DNA from: Candidatus Altimarinota bacterium
GTDB lineage: Bacteria; Patescibacteriota; Gracilibacteria; BD1-5; UBA2023
Reading direction: 5' to 3'
NCBI GenBank assembly: GCA_028689245.1
Contig: JAQTWO010000004.1
Span: 1-33,705 of the forward strand
Length of the DNA: 33,705 nucleotides
The notes below the pieces were generated by a model. The model had not been told where the DNA came from. It searched no databases and was given only the letters and a program-made list of their open reading frames with translations. Position 1 is the stretch's first letter, and each line of letters starts with the position of its first letter. Made by a program: the position numbers and the translations under genes. Shown here piece by piece: positions 804 to 6,486 of the stretch.

Positions 804-830
804 TCTGTCAAAGAGAGTTAGTTATGAAAT

Positions 831-869
831 AGTATCAAAAAATCCCATCAAATGGGATTTTTTGATACT
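831..869. terminator. Bidirectional intrinsic terminator
   Basis: Perfect 18-bp stem: 831-848 pairs with 852-869 around a 3-nt CAA loop. It has a central ATCCCAT/ATGGGAT core, A-rich on the left and T-rich on the right. It sits between the HD gene (plus) and the operon ending at 884 (minus), so it can terminate both. Confidence 0.9.
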
Positions 870-883
870 ATTTCTCGAATAAA

Positions 884-2116
884 TTACTTTCTGAGTTGCA
901 TATAGCTCATAAATAAAAGAATAGATTCAAAAAATAAAAACAGGGAAAGTCCCAGTATATCGCCGAATGTCCTTACTTGAATATAATAATAAACAATTGC
1001 GCCTACACTAAATGCTATTCCAAGAGTATGTAGAGCGAGAACATCAGCTTGTCTCCGAAGAGATGCAATATAGTTTGCTCCAATAAATACATAGGGAAGA
1101 AGGAAAATAAACATACAATAAGAAACAAATGTTTCAGCTCTCCAAATAGGGGATGTTTTGATATACAAAAGAATCAATGACACCAAGAAAAGTATATAGG
1201 AGGGAAATCTGTTAGCGATTTTGTACATTACAAAATCATATGCCAACAAAATGGTAAAAATAAAAAAAATAAAACCTGATAATGGCTCAAATATAAGCAC
1301 GAGTGTAGAAAAAAAAGAAAGTATATAACTCATATACTGTCATACACTCTCTGACAGTACTATGAATTGAGAGAATTTGCGGATGGAGGGGAGTATAAAC
1401 GTGCACAAACAGACAAAGAACGAAAGAGTAAGAAGAAAAAGATGCCATACTGACGTTTCTGGAAATATCAGAGAAGTATAATACCATCCTGAAAAGAACA
1501 TATAAAAAAGCAGGAGAAGAAATATATATCTTTTTTCCTCCTGAAAAAATCGATCAAACAGTATAACACTTAAAAGTGTTATACTTGGCAGAAGTGTATT
1601 AAAAATAAATATAACGCTTGGTGTGGTATCTGTGAATATATAAAAAGGTATGACGGCAAGATAAATGAGTGCAAAAACAATACTATTGGACCGAAAAATG
1701 AGAAATATAGTCTCGTACCGCTTGTGTATAAACGCGAAAAAAACAAATATTATAGAAAGAGATATCGATATACTCAGGTATTCAAATATTTTTAAAGAAG
1801 AAGAAAAAGCATACACAATATTGAGTCCATAGACAACTCCATAGAGAGAGAGATAAAAAAGCAGGAATGATATATAATACGCTGATTTTTTAAAAAATTC
1901 TAGGTTTTTAAAAAAATGAAGAGCGCTTTTATATTTATTACCGCTTTCCGATTCTCCGGTGTCTTTATTTTCGATGATGAAAAATGAAAGTATCTTACTG
2001 AAATACACGATAAAAAAGAGAGAAAGTCCTCAAAACACAATACTTTCAACATACCTTCCAAACAAAAAAAAGAAAGCAACAAAACTTAGATTGATAAGAG
2101 AGAAAAGAAATAACAT
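884..2116 (-). CDS. Multi-pass membrane protein of unknown function
   Basis: A 410-residue protein, last gene of a four-gene minus-strand operon, joined across two UGA-glycine codons (residues 29 and 259). Nearly the whole chain is hydrophobic: roughly ten to twelve membrane segments rich in Phe, Ile and Leu, with one hydrophilic loop around residues 52-65 (ENKDTGESESGNKYKS). No catalytic motif or family signature is visible. The ATG at 2114-2116 lies one codon past the stop of the upstream gene, so the two are probably translationally coupled. The context (a second membrane protein and two small soluble proteins) suggests a membrane complex, but I do not recognise it. AT content is high, as in its neighbours. 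Confidence 0.75.
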
Positions 2117-2119
2117 CTC

Positions 2120-3463
2120 TTAAAAGTTAAGTTGTAAAAAGACATAAAAGATCATAAATATCCCTACATACACGAGTATATGTGAGTCATTTTTCATAAT
2201 TCGAACAAGAAATGAGAAGAAAGAAAGTATGACTATAAAAAACAATATAGAATAATTTATCGGTTGAAATGTTCCTAAAGAATAGATAAAAAATAGAGAA
2301 TAGAGAAAGACTATATACAATGCTGCTTCTCATGCCAATTTAAAGAGATACAACAATACATCAGTATAATATCGAATTCATTTTGCAATACTCGTATAGG
2401 AAAAGGTAACATTTTTAATTCGCTTTTCTATGAGTTGTATATTTTGTACGATAAGTTTCTTTCGTATAACAAGACGTGCTATTTTATCCTTTTTAAACAA
2501 AAGAGTTGCCATAAACAAATCCTTCTGAACAGATCGAAGCTTTTCTTTATAAAGATTGAGTTCTCTGAGATTTTTAAAAAAGATGAACGACTGGGTATCT
2601 ATTTTTTTTTCTACAACAGAATGCTCCTTTTTTTGAATATATATCTCATACGCATTCTTCACCATGCGTTGCAACTTCATAAGAATATCGGTTTCTGGAT
2701 TGCGAATCTTTGTTCCCGACCCAAATTGTTTCAGAAGAACGTTGGTTTCATTCAAGAAGTTTTGTTTTTTTTCCGCTTTGTTTGATTGTATAAATTCCAA
2801 CTCCAGTTCACCTATTTTCAACAGAGCATTCTCTGAAACAATCCGAAGTTTGTCTATATTCGTTGTGTTTTTCAATTGCTTGAGCGCAACGAGAAAATCC
2901 TGAAGTTTCATCCTTCGATCAATATCTATGTTTTGTCCATACGTATTGAGAATATTCTCAATTTTTTGAAGGATCTTATCGATAAGACCGTAGTATTTTT
3001 GTATCTCTTTTCCGATAAAAGTTTCTGATATATCAGAATATGCAGCCTGCACTTGAGTGGTTTGTTCGATCTTTTCTTCTTTTTTTACTTCTTTTTTCGT
3101 ATTTTGTTGAAGAAAGAGAAGGTATCCGGAATGAATCTTAGACGTGGTGGTACGTTTTTCTTCTTCTGTTGCATTTTTATCATCGTAGATCGATATAACC
3201 TGATAATGAAGATCATTTACCAGTTTAATATATGCCTTAAATATATCATTCGATTGGATTTGTCAGCTTTTTTTCTGATTATTCAAGAGTATATCAAAAT
3301 AATATACCTTTCCCTGGTCTCCATTTTCTGCTATCTGCTTAATATCGACAATAGAATACCCCTGATTATGAAGAGCTTGGCGAGCCTCCTCCAGAGAATT
3401 ATATTGAACGATGAGTTCTACTTTTTGATTGTTTTTGGCACAGACGGCCTGAAAACTTTGCAT
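2120..3463 (-). CDS. Membrane-anchored coiled-coil protein of unknown function
   Basis: A 447-residue protein assembled across three UGA-glycine codons (residues 67, 362 and 378). Residues 1-45 (MQSFQAV..., then SLEEARQALHNQGYSIVDI) resemble the short N-terminal motif of GspF/PilC-type proteins, but the helical-bundle T2SF domain is missing. Residues about 100-350 are charged and helical with coiled-coil character. Residues 375-447 form about three membrane helices. The ATG at 3461-3463 is chosen because the preceding gene ends at 3471 and the homology-like start is MQSFQ. The frame stays open to 3607, but that part overlaps the upstream gene. Role unknown; it could be a scaffold for a membrane machine. 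Confidence 0.72.
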
Positions 3464-3470
3464 ATTATAT

Positions 3471-3680
3471 TTAAACGATAGTGTTTTTAATATCTCATAA
3501 TCATTGTTTTGCTCTTTGCATAGTCTCTTGTACCCGTTGTTCACGGACCAATCATGGAAGTCATGTAAAAAGCTGGGCAACGATTTCTTGATTTCATCTG
3601 TTTTCAAAAAGCTCAGAGAACATTTCTCCTGCTTTTTTTAGAGAAATGCTTTGGTCAATTTCATGTGCTTGTTCTATCAT
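3471..3680 (-). CDS. Small helical protein, unknown function
   Basis: A 69-residue reading frame visible only when UGA is glycine: five of its six glycines (29, 40, 43, 60, 62) are UGA codons. It starts at ATG 3678-3680, six bases below the stop of the upstream gene, and ends eight bases before the start of the downstream gene, so it fits neatly between them. The chain is amphipathic and helical (for example SLKKAGEMFSELFENRG) with no cysteines and no membrane segment. The alternative is that this DNA belongs to the N-terminal extension of the next gene in another frame. The tight spacing and the sensible glycine positions favour a separate gene. Confidence 0.6.
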
Positions 3681-3685
3681 ATCCG

Positions 3686-3997
3686 TTAAATATTATCGAA
3701 TAATATATTAAAATCCGTATTGAATACCGTTTCTTTTTCCTCTTGTTTTCGTATCTGTTGTATCTTCTCAGTTTGTTTTTCCCCATTGGTCATAACCTCT
3801 TTTTCCTCTATGATATCAATAAGTGCGGTGAGTTTTTTATAGAACATATCAAGATATTCGTCATCAATAATATCAAGCGAATCAAAATAGAGCTGTTCTT
3901 GTTTTTTATCCAAAGAGAGACGATAAATAACCTCACGTATTATCTGACGTTTTTCATTATCTTTTGAGAATCTTTTGAGGAGACTTCCGAGAAACAT
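3686..3997 (-). CDS. Small charged protein, first gene of the membrane operon
   Basis: A 103-residue protein with ATG at 3995-3997 and TAA at 3686-3688 and no UGA codon. It is rich in Lys, Glu, Asp and Ile, predicted mainly helical, and has an acidic run near YFDSLDIIDDEYLDMF. It has no signal peptide, membrane segment or known motif. It heads the four-gene operon running to 884, with a 5-bp gap to the next start. Promoter elements must lie in the AT-rich region 3998-4130, which is shared with the divergent protease gene. Function unknown. Confidence 0.7.
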   Translation of the reverse strand: MFLGSLLKRFSKDNEKRQIIREVIYRLSLDKKQEQLYFDSLDIIDDEYLDMFYKKLTALIDIIEEKEVMTNGEKQTEKIQQIRKQEEKETVFNTDFNILFDNI

Positions 3998-4333: not shown

Positions 4334-5722
4334 ATGAAATATGTGAAGAAGTATTGTTCTATTTTTATCATTTGTTTTCAAAACATGCCGTATCTTTTCA
4401 AAAATAAATACATTATCATTATTTGTTTTTTATCATTCCTTCTCGGAATTGTCGTTGATTCTTTGGTCGGGGAAAGGGCTCAGTCTTTTATACAAACAAG
4501 GGTTTTAAACCAAAGAATTAAAAATGAGAACTCCGCTTTGAATATCGCCGAAAAACCATCGATCAATATCGACTTGTTCTATGAAGCATATAAACAAGCT
4601 TCGGAAAATTATTATGGATTTGATACAATTTCTGAAAAGGATATGGTTTCAGGAATGATAAAGGGGTTTATTAACTCTTTTTGAGATAAGCATAGTGAAT
4701 ATTTCAATATTGATGAGACGAGGAAATTCAATGAGGTACTTTCTGGAGACTTTGAATGAATCGGAGCAGTGATAGAAAAAAATGACTTCTGAGTCGTTAT
4801 AGGACGGATTATTGGAGGTTCCCCCGCAAAAGAGTCGGGACTTTTATCTGGGGATATTATTACAAAGGCAAATAACGAGGAATTAAAAAATATAAATCTT
4901 ACTGATGCAGTTGCAAAAATACGCTGAAAAGCAGGTACGACCGTTATTTTGGAAATTATTCGACCATGACAGAAAGAAGTTATTATAAAAACGGTTACGA
5001 GGAGAAAGATAGACATCCCATCGGTGGAGGGTAAAATCATAGACGGTACAAGTATCGGACAGATAACACTTTCTATATTCGGGGAAAAAACAGCGGATGA
5101 TTTTTCCCGGACCCTTACGGAATTGGAGGATAAAAAAATCACAGGTCTTATCATAGATCTTCGTGACAATGGCGGTGGTTATCTTGAAACAGCCGTATCT
5201 ATTCTCTCAAATTTTGTTGAAAAAGATAAAATCCTCGTTACTACCAAGGAAAAAAATCCATTTTTCAACAGATCGTATTTTTCTTATGGAAATAATGGAA
5301 AGAAACTTCCCATCGTGGTTCTTATAAATGAAAACTCGGCTTCCGCATCAGAGATAACTGCCGGTGCTTTGAAAGATTATAATCTCGCTATTCTTGTTGG
5401 ACAAAAGAGTTATGGAAAAGGTTCTGTGCAGCAACCGTTCAATCTCTCCGATGGAAGTGAGATGAAGATAACTATCGCAAAATGGTATACTCCGAAAGAC
5501 AATCTGATTGATAAAATAGGAATAAATCCAGATATCGAAGTAAAATTCGAAAAAGATGATTTTGAAAAAAAATATGATCGACAACTTGAAGAGGCAAAAA
5601 ATATACTCTCGAGGTTTATTCTTCTGTGAGATAAACAAAAAACCGTGGATGCCTATTTGAAGGAAAGAGAAACGATTCTAAAAAAAGCTCTTGAAAGTAG
5701 TACGGGAAGTTTAAAAAAATAG
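4334..5722 (+). CDS. S41-family C-terminal processing peptidase (CtpA/Prc-like)
   Basis: A 462-residue serine protease read through several UGA-glycine codons, the first at 4682-4684. Order: N-terminal membrane anchor (about residues 27-45, IIIICFLSFLLGIVVDSL), a helical region, a PDZ domain (about 137-220, containing GIGAVIEKN and SGLLSGDIIT), then the S41 catalytic core with LRDNGGGYLE. The catalytic Ser337 lies in SASASE and Lys362 in YGKGS, 25 residues apart as in the family. It should face outside the membrane and trim secreted or envelope proteins. The ATG at 4334 is preferred; ATG 4385 just before the anchor is an alternative. Its substrates may include surface proteins such as the giant one downstream, but that is only inference. 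Confidence 0.92.
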
Positions 5723-5727
5723 TATCC

Positions 5728-5759
5728 AAAAAATAATCCGCCAGGGCGGATTATTTTTT
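5728..5759. terminator. Bidirectional intrinsic terminator
   Basis: AAAAAATAATCCGCC (5728-5742) pairs with GGCGGATTATTTTTT (5745-5759). The stem has an A-run on one side and a T-run on the other. It ends the S41 gene on the plus strand, and the stop codon of the convergent ferredoxin gene (5751-5753) lies inside the stem. Confidence 0.88.
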
Positions 5760-5990
5760 CTTGAGTTCTGCAAGATATGCATTACTGGCTTTAATGGGGT
5801 CCATTTTATCAAAAATGACTGTATCGACCACGATTGTCGGACTTGTTTTACAGCTTCCTTGACACCCGCATTCTTCGATGGTGCTTTTATCTCCTGTGTC
5901 GTACTTTTCTTTTTCTGCGAGAAGTCGTTTCAGTATATAAGGAGAAAATCTATTGGTACATGTTTTTCCGGTGCATACTTTTACAATCAT
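5751..5990 (-). CDS. Thioredoxin-like [2Fe-2S] ferredoxin
   Basis: A 79-residue protein with the C-x4-C ... C-x3-C cysteine spacing of thioredoxin-fold [2Fe-2S] ferredoxins (NuoE / HydA-associated type): Cys6 and Cys11 in VCTGKTC, Cys43 and Cys47 in CGCQGSC, plus an extra Cys41. It is shorter than NuoE and consists of the ferredoxin domain only. ATG 5988-5990 is chosen because the preceding in-frame residues look unlike a domain and run into the superoxide reductase gene. It lies 28 bp downstream of that gene in the same direction, so it may be its electron-transfer partner; that pairing is inferred from position. The stop sits within the shared terminator stem. Confidence 0.85.
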   Translation of the reverse strand: MIVKVCTGKTCTNRFSPYILKRLLAEKEKYDTGDKSTIEECGCQGSCKTSPTIVVDTVIFDKMDPIKASNAYLAELKKK

Positions 5991-6018
5991 TGGTATTGAG
6001 GTGAATAAAATAAAATTC

Positions 6019-6486
6019 TTACTGTAGAGTATCTTTGATTCGTATACCACGCCATATGCCATGAATATTACAACTGAGGCGAACTTCATAATCATCGATT
6101 CATGGATTTTCAAAAACAAGCGTCGTATCTTCGGGTTGAATCTGTATTTCCAGGATTTCGCCATCCCCATCAAAAACACCAACATATTCTATAAAATGGT
6201 TTTCCTCTATTTCGTGAGGATTGTCAGTGGTGCCTACTTGGACCATGAGAACACCTCATTGTTCTTTATAAAAAGGGATATGGCAAACTTCCTCATCGGT
6301 ATACGTGCTTCCTGAGATTTCTTGTATGTTTTGAGGAGTCTCTATGAAGACATCTTTATCATCTCCGCAGTGTGGACAAACCCAAGATTCGTCCAGATTT
6401 TCAAAAGAAGTTCCGGGTAGTATATTTTCTTCTCATACGAAAGGATTATAGACGTATGAACAGGATGTGCAAGTGAATTTTTGCAT
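6019..6486 (-). CDS. Rubredoxin-superoxide reductase fusion
   Basis: A 155-residue protein reconstructed across three UGA-glycine codons (residues 18, 77 and 129); standard-code calling misses it. Residues 1-47 form a rubredoxin: Cys6-x2-Cys9 and Cys37-x2-Cys40 hold one iron. Residues 65-150 match the superoxide reductase (neelaredoxin/desulfoferrodoxin C-terminal) domain with all ligands of the Fe(His)4Cys centre: His69, His91 and His97 (HEIEENH), Cys139 and His142 (CNIHGIW). The enzyme reduces superoxide to hydrogen peroxide without making oxygen, with the rubredoxin feeding electrons. It suits an anaerobic or oxygen-limited cell facing transient oxygen. The commoner class I desulfoferrodoxin carries a smaller desulforedoxin domain instead. 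The ferredoxin gene follows. Confidence 0.9.

Follow-up and report, generated by a model that had tools for sequence, protein, structure and literature searches.

A four-gene membrane operon of Gracilibacteria whose central protein carries two GspF/PilC-like N-domains: a possible accessory of type IV filament machinery

The window analysed here is a stretch of 33,705 nucleotides, translated with table 25 (TGA = Gly). Between positions 884 and 3997, its minus strand contains four ORFs, named A, B, C, and D, which are separated by gaps of 5, 7, and 3 bp (Table 1). For gene C, homologues indicate that the start codon is the ATG at 3463; the ORF tool prefers a TTG at 3607. When members of the genus are compared pairwise, pN/pS is 0.14-0.31 for A and C and 0.32-0.56 for D, and these low values mark A, C, and D as clearly coding. 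Gene B evolves fast (0.47-0.96 in the same comparisons), and it is mainly its kept frame and position that support it as a real gene. All four are genuine genes that lie close together and evolve under purifying selection, which bears out the membrane operon of unnamed genes proposed in a preliminary description of this DNA. That description also mentioned one strong terminator, in agreement with the 23-bp stem and z-score of a hairpin that separates D from a convergent HD-domain gene; this hairpin is a probable bidirectional terminator. Scans for promoter and terminator patterns gave matches at chance level only.

Table 1. Coordinates of the operon, the domains of protein C, and neighbouring features in the window.
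Feature	Position	Strand	Description
Gene A	3686..3997	-	103 aa soluble helical protein; conserved C-terminal NSFxFLxxN-like tail (alignment A3)
Gene B	3471..3680	-	69 aa small soluble protein, fast-evolving
Gene C	2120..3463	-	447 aa; a pair of GspF/PilC N-domains, then a DnaK-lid-like bundle and three membrane helices at the C-terminus (predicted)
C, residues 1-48	3320..3463	-	First GspF/PilC N-domain (bbab); AF2 strands 2-10, 13-21, helix 24-33, strand 37-44
C, residues 50-97	3173..3316	-	Second, diverged GspF/PilC N-domain; AF2 bbab 52-93
C, residues 148-228	2780..3022	-	DnaK-lid-like three-helix bundle; AF2 helices 149-178, 181-197, 203-227
C, residues 372-446	2126..2350	-	Three membrane helices; AF2 helices 356-396, 404-422, 426-446
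Gene D	884..2116	-	410 aa, 14 predicted membrane helices, N-in/C-in
Hairpin	826..874		23-bp stem, -31.2 kcal/mol, z = -10.5; flanked by convergent genes
S41 peptidase gene	4334..5722	+	S41 peptidase with PDZ domain (CtpA-like), Pfam S41 E 2e-51; divergent neighbour

Pfam, NCBIfam, and PADLOC contain no usable family for any of the four products. The operon had been called unrecognised, a label that homology to a known system would have removed, and with respect to these three collections it stands. As regards anti-phage defence, no PADLOC family matched the operon products. Similarly, no description of genes A-D was found in open-licence papers, among which those on Gracilibacteria or Vampirococcus treat pili and secretion generally.

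Conservation of the operon was followed in 41 loci of the order to which the window's genome belongs; loci that were fetched by name belong nearly all to 'Candidatus Gracilibacteria' and one to 'Candidatus Altimarinus'. Gene A lies upstream of C and on the same strand in 39 of them, and D lies directly 3' of C in 39, the remaining two ending at contig borders. The gene order is kept in 39/41 Gracilibacteria loci, and the unlinked genes that had been named as the finding that would speak against an operon are not what relatives present. The S41/PDZ peptidase gene is found upstream and divergent, within 2.5 kb, in 38/41 loci; it is regarded here as a conserved neighbour and not as a member of the operon. 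The operon is often followed by ComFC (30/41 loci) and by an M17 aminopeptidase (21/41). With S41, M17, and ComFC as neighbours, pil genes never adjoin C in these 41 loci. Elsewhere in the window, positions 5751-6185 of the minus strand encode a small protein with a CTGKTC...CGCQGSC pattern that resembles a thioredoxin-like 2Fe-2S ferredoxin.

Searches with gene A returned scattered chance matches only. Gene B is recognisable by sequence within the genus only; in most other loci, its slot is occupied by a small ORF of ~50-117 aa, and in one subgroup of the family, A and C are directly adjacent. The ORFs in this slot (L036-L069) look unrelated in sequence, and they are possibly one very fast-evolving gene. 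For D, an AlphaFold model based on 20 sequences (pLDDT 81, pTM 0.72) predicts more membrane helices than the ten to twelve first proposed, namely 14, and the orientation given in Table 1 follows from the positive charge of nearly every even loop. In four loci (L062, L064, L066, and L067; genera g20, g23, and g24), D measures ~205-214 aa, with the ORF open and the operon intact. The shortened D is devoid of the middle of the protein, profile positions ~52-184.

The domain content of C (Table 1) is as read from profile comparisons and from an AlphaFold model of 31 sequences (pLDDT 77), whose pTM of 0.32 makes the domains usable but not their arrangement relative to one another. With the class profile, hhalign scores the first N-domain at 76 against PilC N-termini (shuffled maximum 17, reversed control 14), and with the order profile at 47 (shuffled maximum 23, reversed control 9). 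The second N-domain scores 35 against the PilC N-domain (shuffled maximum 16), a match that is clear only through the Peregrinibacteria-type relatives, i.e., the families without in-frame TGA (lineage names inside the class are our own assignments). The two domains also match each other, with a score of 39 vs 14 in the class profile and weakly in the order profile. In addition, C homologues of the Peregrinibacteria type match the NCBIfam GspF family (TIGR02120) at residues 4-53, with E-values from 4e-6 to 2.5e-5. Foldseek matched the small domain of C to T7 Gp2 (4lk0_M, prob 0.99, E 0.75) and to YkzG (4njc_C, prob 0.92, E 3.1); these matches are weak when taken alone, and the N-domain of PulF has a bbab fold with the same two structural neighbours (PMC10790770). 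No T2SSF domain (PF00482) was found in C with Pfam. The preliminary description had noticed a GspF/PilC-like N-terminal motif on C in the absence of a T2SF domain; this is confirmed, and the motif is in fact present twice.

The bundle that follows the N-domains resembles the lid of DnaK. HMM matches to C 148-228 fall at equivalent positions in eight DnaKs, with E-values between 1e-10 and 1e-6, and hhalign scores the pair at 49 with the class-wide profile (built on 22 homologues) and 32 with the order profile, vs shuffled maxima of 18-19 and a reversed control too. The homology to DnaK is limited to the lid, residues 148-228, and C has no Hsp70 nucleotide-binding domain. At its C-terminus, C ends in an invariant Asn-Phe, and its topology, judged from loop charges only, is likely N-in, C-out. 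With C as query, profile searches of the PDB yielded nothing beyond chance coiled-coil matches and a match of its membrane part to rhodopsin, all of which were set aside.

C is present in 51/59 relatives (42/45 good genomes), in single copy save in one genome, where two contigs each hold part of it. More generally, a class-wide profile matches C in 220/288 genomes of the GTDB class; outside the class, only fragments are matched, chiefly residues 1-48, which find PilC-sized ORFs, and residues ~101-225, which find DnaK. The term lineage-specific, as used in the preliminary description, therefore suits the A-B-C-D operon at the level of the order and does not suit C, which is a class-wide family. 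In most of the loci read from Peregrinibacteria-type genomes, C lies between pyrG and lgt. In family f3, C is present together with an unambiguous D, and no A was detected. In f13, a second TGA-recoding family that we assign to Absconditabacteria, C is followed, in the loci read, by a membrane protein of 400-450 aa in the place of D. The sequence link between this protein and D is weak (hhalign 48, vs 31 for the reversed control and 38 in the tool), and it is by position and size only that the protein is a candidate D counterpart. Most of the f13 loci read (L134, L162-L165, L167, L168) have a KH-domain T2SSE-family ATPase gene, divergent, beside the pair formed by C and the D-like protein. In family f7, short C-like proteins of 180-281 aa (L158:1323-2168, L159:997-1539) have one or two GspF N-domains joined to the membrane part and no DnaK-lid-like bundle, and each is encoded just 3' of a predicted lipoprotein gene.

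The PilC proteins of the same genomes were then compared with C. Eight T2SSF domains occur in the window's genome; they correspond to four PilC paralogues on contigs C22, C49, C62, and C83 (L143-L146), none of them at the C locus, and the N-domain is absent from all four. PilC N-domains were scored from the stop codon to the T2SSF core, which makes the choice of start site irrelevant. In some of the PilCs of this genome, no more than 7-18 residues precede the T2SSF core. Across the code-25 lineages sampled, the N-domain was found in 0/53 PilCs. It is also missing from 34/39 sampled PilCs of the Peregrinibacteria type (29/33 distinct sequences; 4/33 have it). Outside the class but in the same phylum, 33/35 PilCs (32/34 distinct) have the domain; this set is biased because part of it was taken from genomes in which a match had been seen beforehand, and the domain was also present in all six outside genomes taken from the non-matching list (G295, G298, G302, G305, G309, and G310).

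Searching whole genomes with an N-domain profile (A10) removes most of this sampling bias. Exactly one match per genome was obtained in 22/22 genomes of the order, and it was always gene C. Among 38 consecutive genomes from outside the class, 31 had at least one match, nearly all in PilC-sized ORFs. No match was found in four f13 genomes, as their C is too diverged. A10 contains three code-25 C sequences, so that C matches partly by construction; the missing PilC matches do not arise in this way. The N-domain is thus absent from PilC in code-25 genomes, and C is its only detected carrier in the order. Some Peregrinibacteria-type genomes have C, yet one of their PilCs keeps the N-domain. From these sequence comparisons, the N-domain has apparently left PilC and become part of a separate membrane protein. 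No report of a detached N-domain was found in open-licence papers on platform proteins and CPR families.

As regards co-occurrence, T2SSF is found in 260/288 genomes of the class (28/288 are without it), and by our own count a strong C match (E<1e-25) occurs in 153 genomes, of which only one, G214, is without T2SSF; this association is confounded by shared ancestry and genome incompleteness. In genus g67 of family f17, all five sampled genomes are without both C and T2SSF, and two other genera of the family have both. G214 (93% complete) has a full-length C and no T2SSF, and several f7 genomes encode the short C-like protein without T2SSF, so that C is not strictly tied to a platform.

We would give an even chance to the hypothesis that the products of the operon form a complex at the membrane that is accessory to the type IV filament (pilus / type II-like) machinery. 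C, held in the membrane by its three helices, would supply two copies of the PilC/GspF N-domain in trans, with D as its polytopic membrane partner and A and B as small cytosolic partners or regulators. Since the PilCs of code-25 genomes have no N-domain, C would dock on these N-less platforms or on their ATPase and thereby tune filament assembly, and one shared C may serve two to four PilC paralogues. In PulF/PilC, the N-domain is flexible, dispensable for core assembly, and needed for full efficiency; when the retraction ATPase PilT is lost, a piliation defect that maps to this domain is suppressed, and the PulF N-domain is non-essential, with an unknown partner (PMC10790770). With such properties, an N-domain that is separately encoded and shared could tune several PilC platforms. 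The domain identity of C, the relocation, the T2SSF co-occurrence, the kept operon order, and the T2SSE-family ATPase gene beside the f13 pair speak for this hypothesis. Against it stand the absence of pil linkage in the order, the occurrence of C or C-like proteins without T2SSF (G214, f7), the N-domain that one PilC keeps in some Peregrinibacteria-type genomes, the confounding of the co-occurrence, the non-essential nature of the PulF N-domain, and the KH-T2SSE ATPase of f13, which is not a typical pilus motor. The preliminary description had suggested a secretion or attachment device. The two N-domains of C, missing from the PilCs of the same genomes, support this link indirectly, and the data agree better with an accessory of the type IV filament machinery already present than with a separate new device.

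As to how this arrangement arose, the simplest account is a relocation followed by additions. In the class, the N-domain of the platform would first have moved to a dedicated membrane protein, become duplicated, and been fused to a DnaK-lid-like bundle; the code-25 lineages would then have added D, and A and B would have been added in the order's two main families. Somewhat more tentatively, and with chances that we place a little under even, we propose for the class Gracilibacteria as a whole that this dedicated, duplicated, membrane-anchored protein, with D (and A and B), provides shared subunits that act in trans on all PilC paralogues.

A different view is that the operon encodes an envelope-biogenesis complex unrelated to pili, involved in membrane protein quality control or in lipoprotein/peptidoglycan maturation, which would have reused the N-domains and the DnaK-lid-like bundle as general binding modules while PilC lost its N-domain independently. 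Its constant neighbours are a processing peptidase (S41/PDZ) and M17, with lgt in Peregrinibacteria-type genomes; the DnaK-lid match hints at a chaperone-like contact with substrates, and G214 combines a full-length C with the absence of T2SSF. However, these neighbours vary by lineage and are mostly housekeeping genes, and such a complex accounts neither for the loss of the PilC N-domain wherever C is the only carrier nor for the strong co-occurrence with T2SSF. We consider it rather unlikely.

The hypothesis of a separate secretion device, in which D would be an EccD-like translocon and C its cytosolic adaptor, comes from fold searches: EccD/ESX translocon chains take the first five places among the Foldseek matches of D (prob 0.84-0.85, best E 0.10), and one D homologue of another family matches TIGR03920 EccD at E 0.027. 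However, the TM-scores of these matches are only 0.24-0.27, and the D model matched no PDB fold at E<0.001. The 31 D members scanned and the D profile gave nothing in NCBIfam, Pfam, and the PDB, with no EccD among the members and none at E<=10 for the profile vs the PDB. D also has no ubiquitin-like domain and 14 helices vs 11, it tolerates internal shortening to about 210 aa, and the operon contains no ESX ATPase gene. With weak E-values, TM-scores of about 0.25, and no family match, EccD homology was rejected as unproven, and such a device seems very improbable. Least probable of all is a contact, at the membrane, between RNA polymerase and the bbab domains of C that would couple transcription to the envelope, as the Gp2 and YkzG matches might suggest, given that the sequence homology of C is to GspF/PilC and that the PulF N-domain, with the same fold neighbours, is without the Arg through which Gp2 contacts RNA polymerase (PMC10790770).

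These host-dependent bacteria are suspected to use type IV pili for attachment and DNA uptake, and the pilus machine is thought to attach such cells to their hosts; the operon is probably a separate add-on to it. Even in model systems, what the PilC/GspF N-domain does and what it binds has yet to be established, and a search for partners has been called for (PMC10790770). The natural split described here makes this question testable because the N-domain must find its partner in trans. In addition, core genes of the class that are undescribed in the databases searched now have names and a domain structure.

Among known systems, C is closest in content to GspF/PilC itself (TIGR02120; PulF, PMC10790770), with which it shares an N-terminal, cytosolic bbab domain, the profile match, the Gp2/YkzG structural neighbours, and three membrane segments, predicted in C, on the same chain. 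It differs in that two N-domains are carried by a separate protein without T2SSF (Cyto1/Cyto2) and with a DnaK-lid-like bundle in between. The lid of DnaK/Hsp70 (SBD-alpha) aligns with C 148-228, modelled as a three-helix bundle; unlike DnaK, C is membrane-anchored and has neither the nucleotide-binding nor the beta substrate-binding domain. D resembles EccD of type VII secretion (ESX-3, ESX-5) in being polytopic and all-helical and in its weak fold-search top match, and differs from it by the lack of a significant sequence or fold match, of the ubiquitin-like domain, and of ESX partners, as well as by its 14 helices. Finally, TadB/TadC offer a precedent for platform parts divided between polypeptides (PMC10790770); there, it is the Cyto domains that are split, whereas in C it is the N-domain that appears detached and duplicated.
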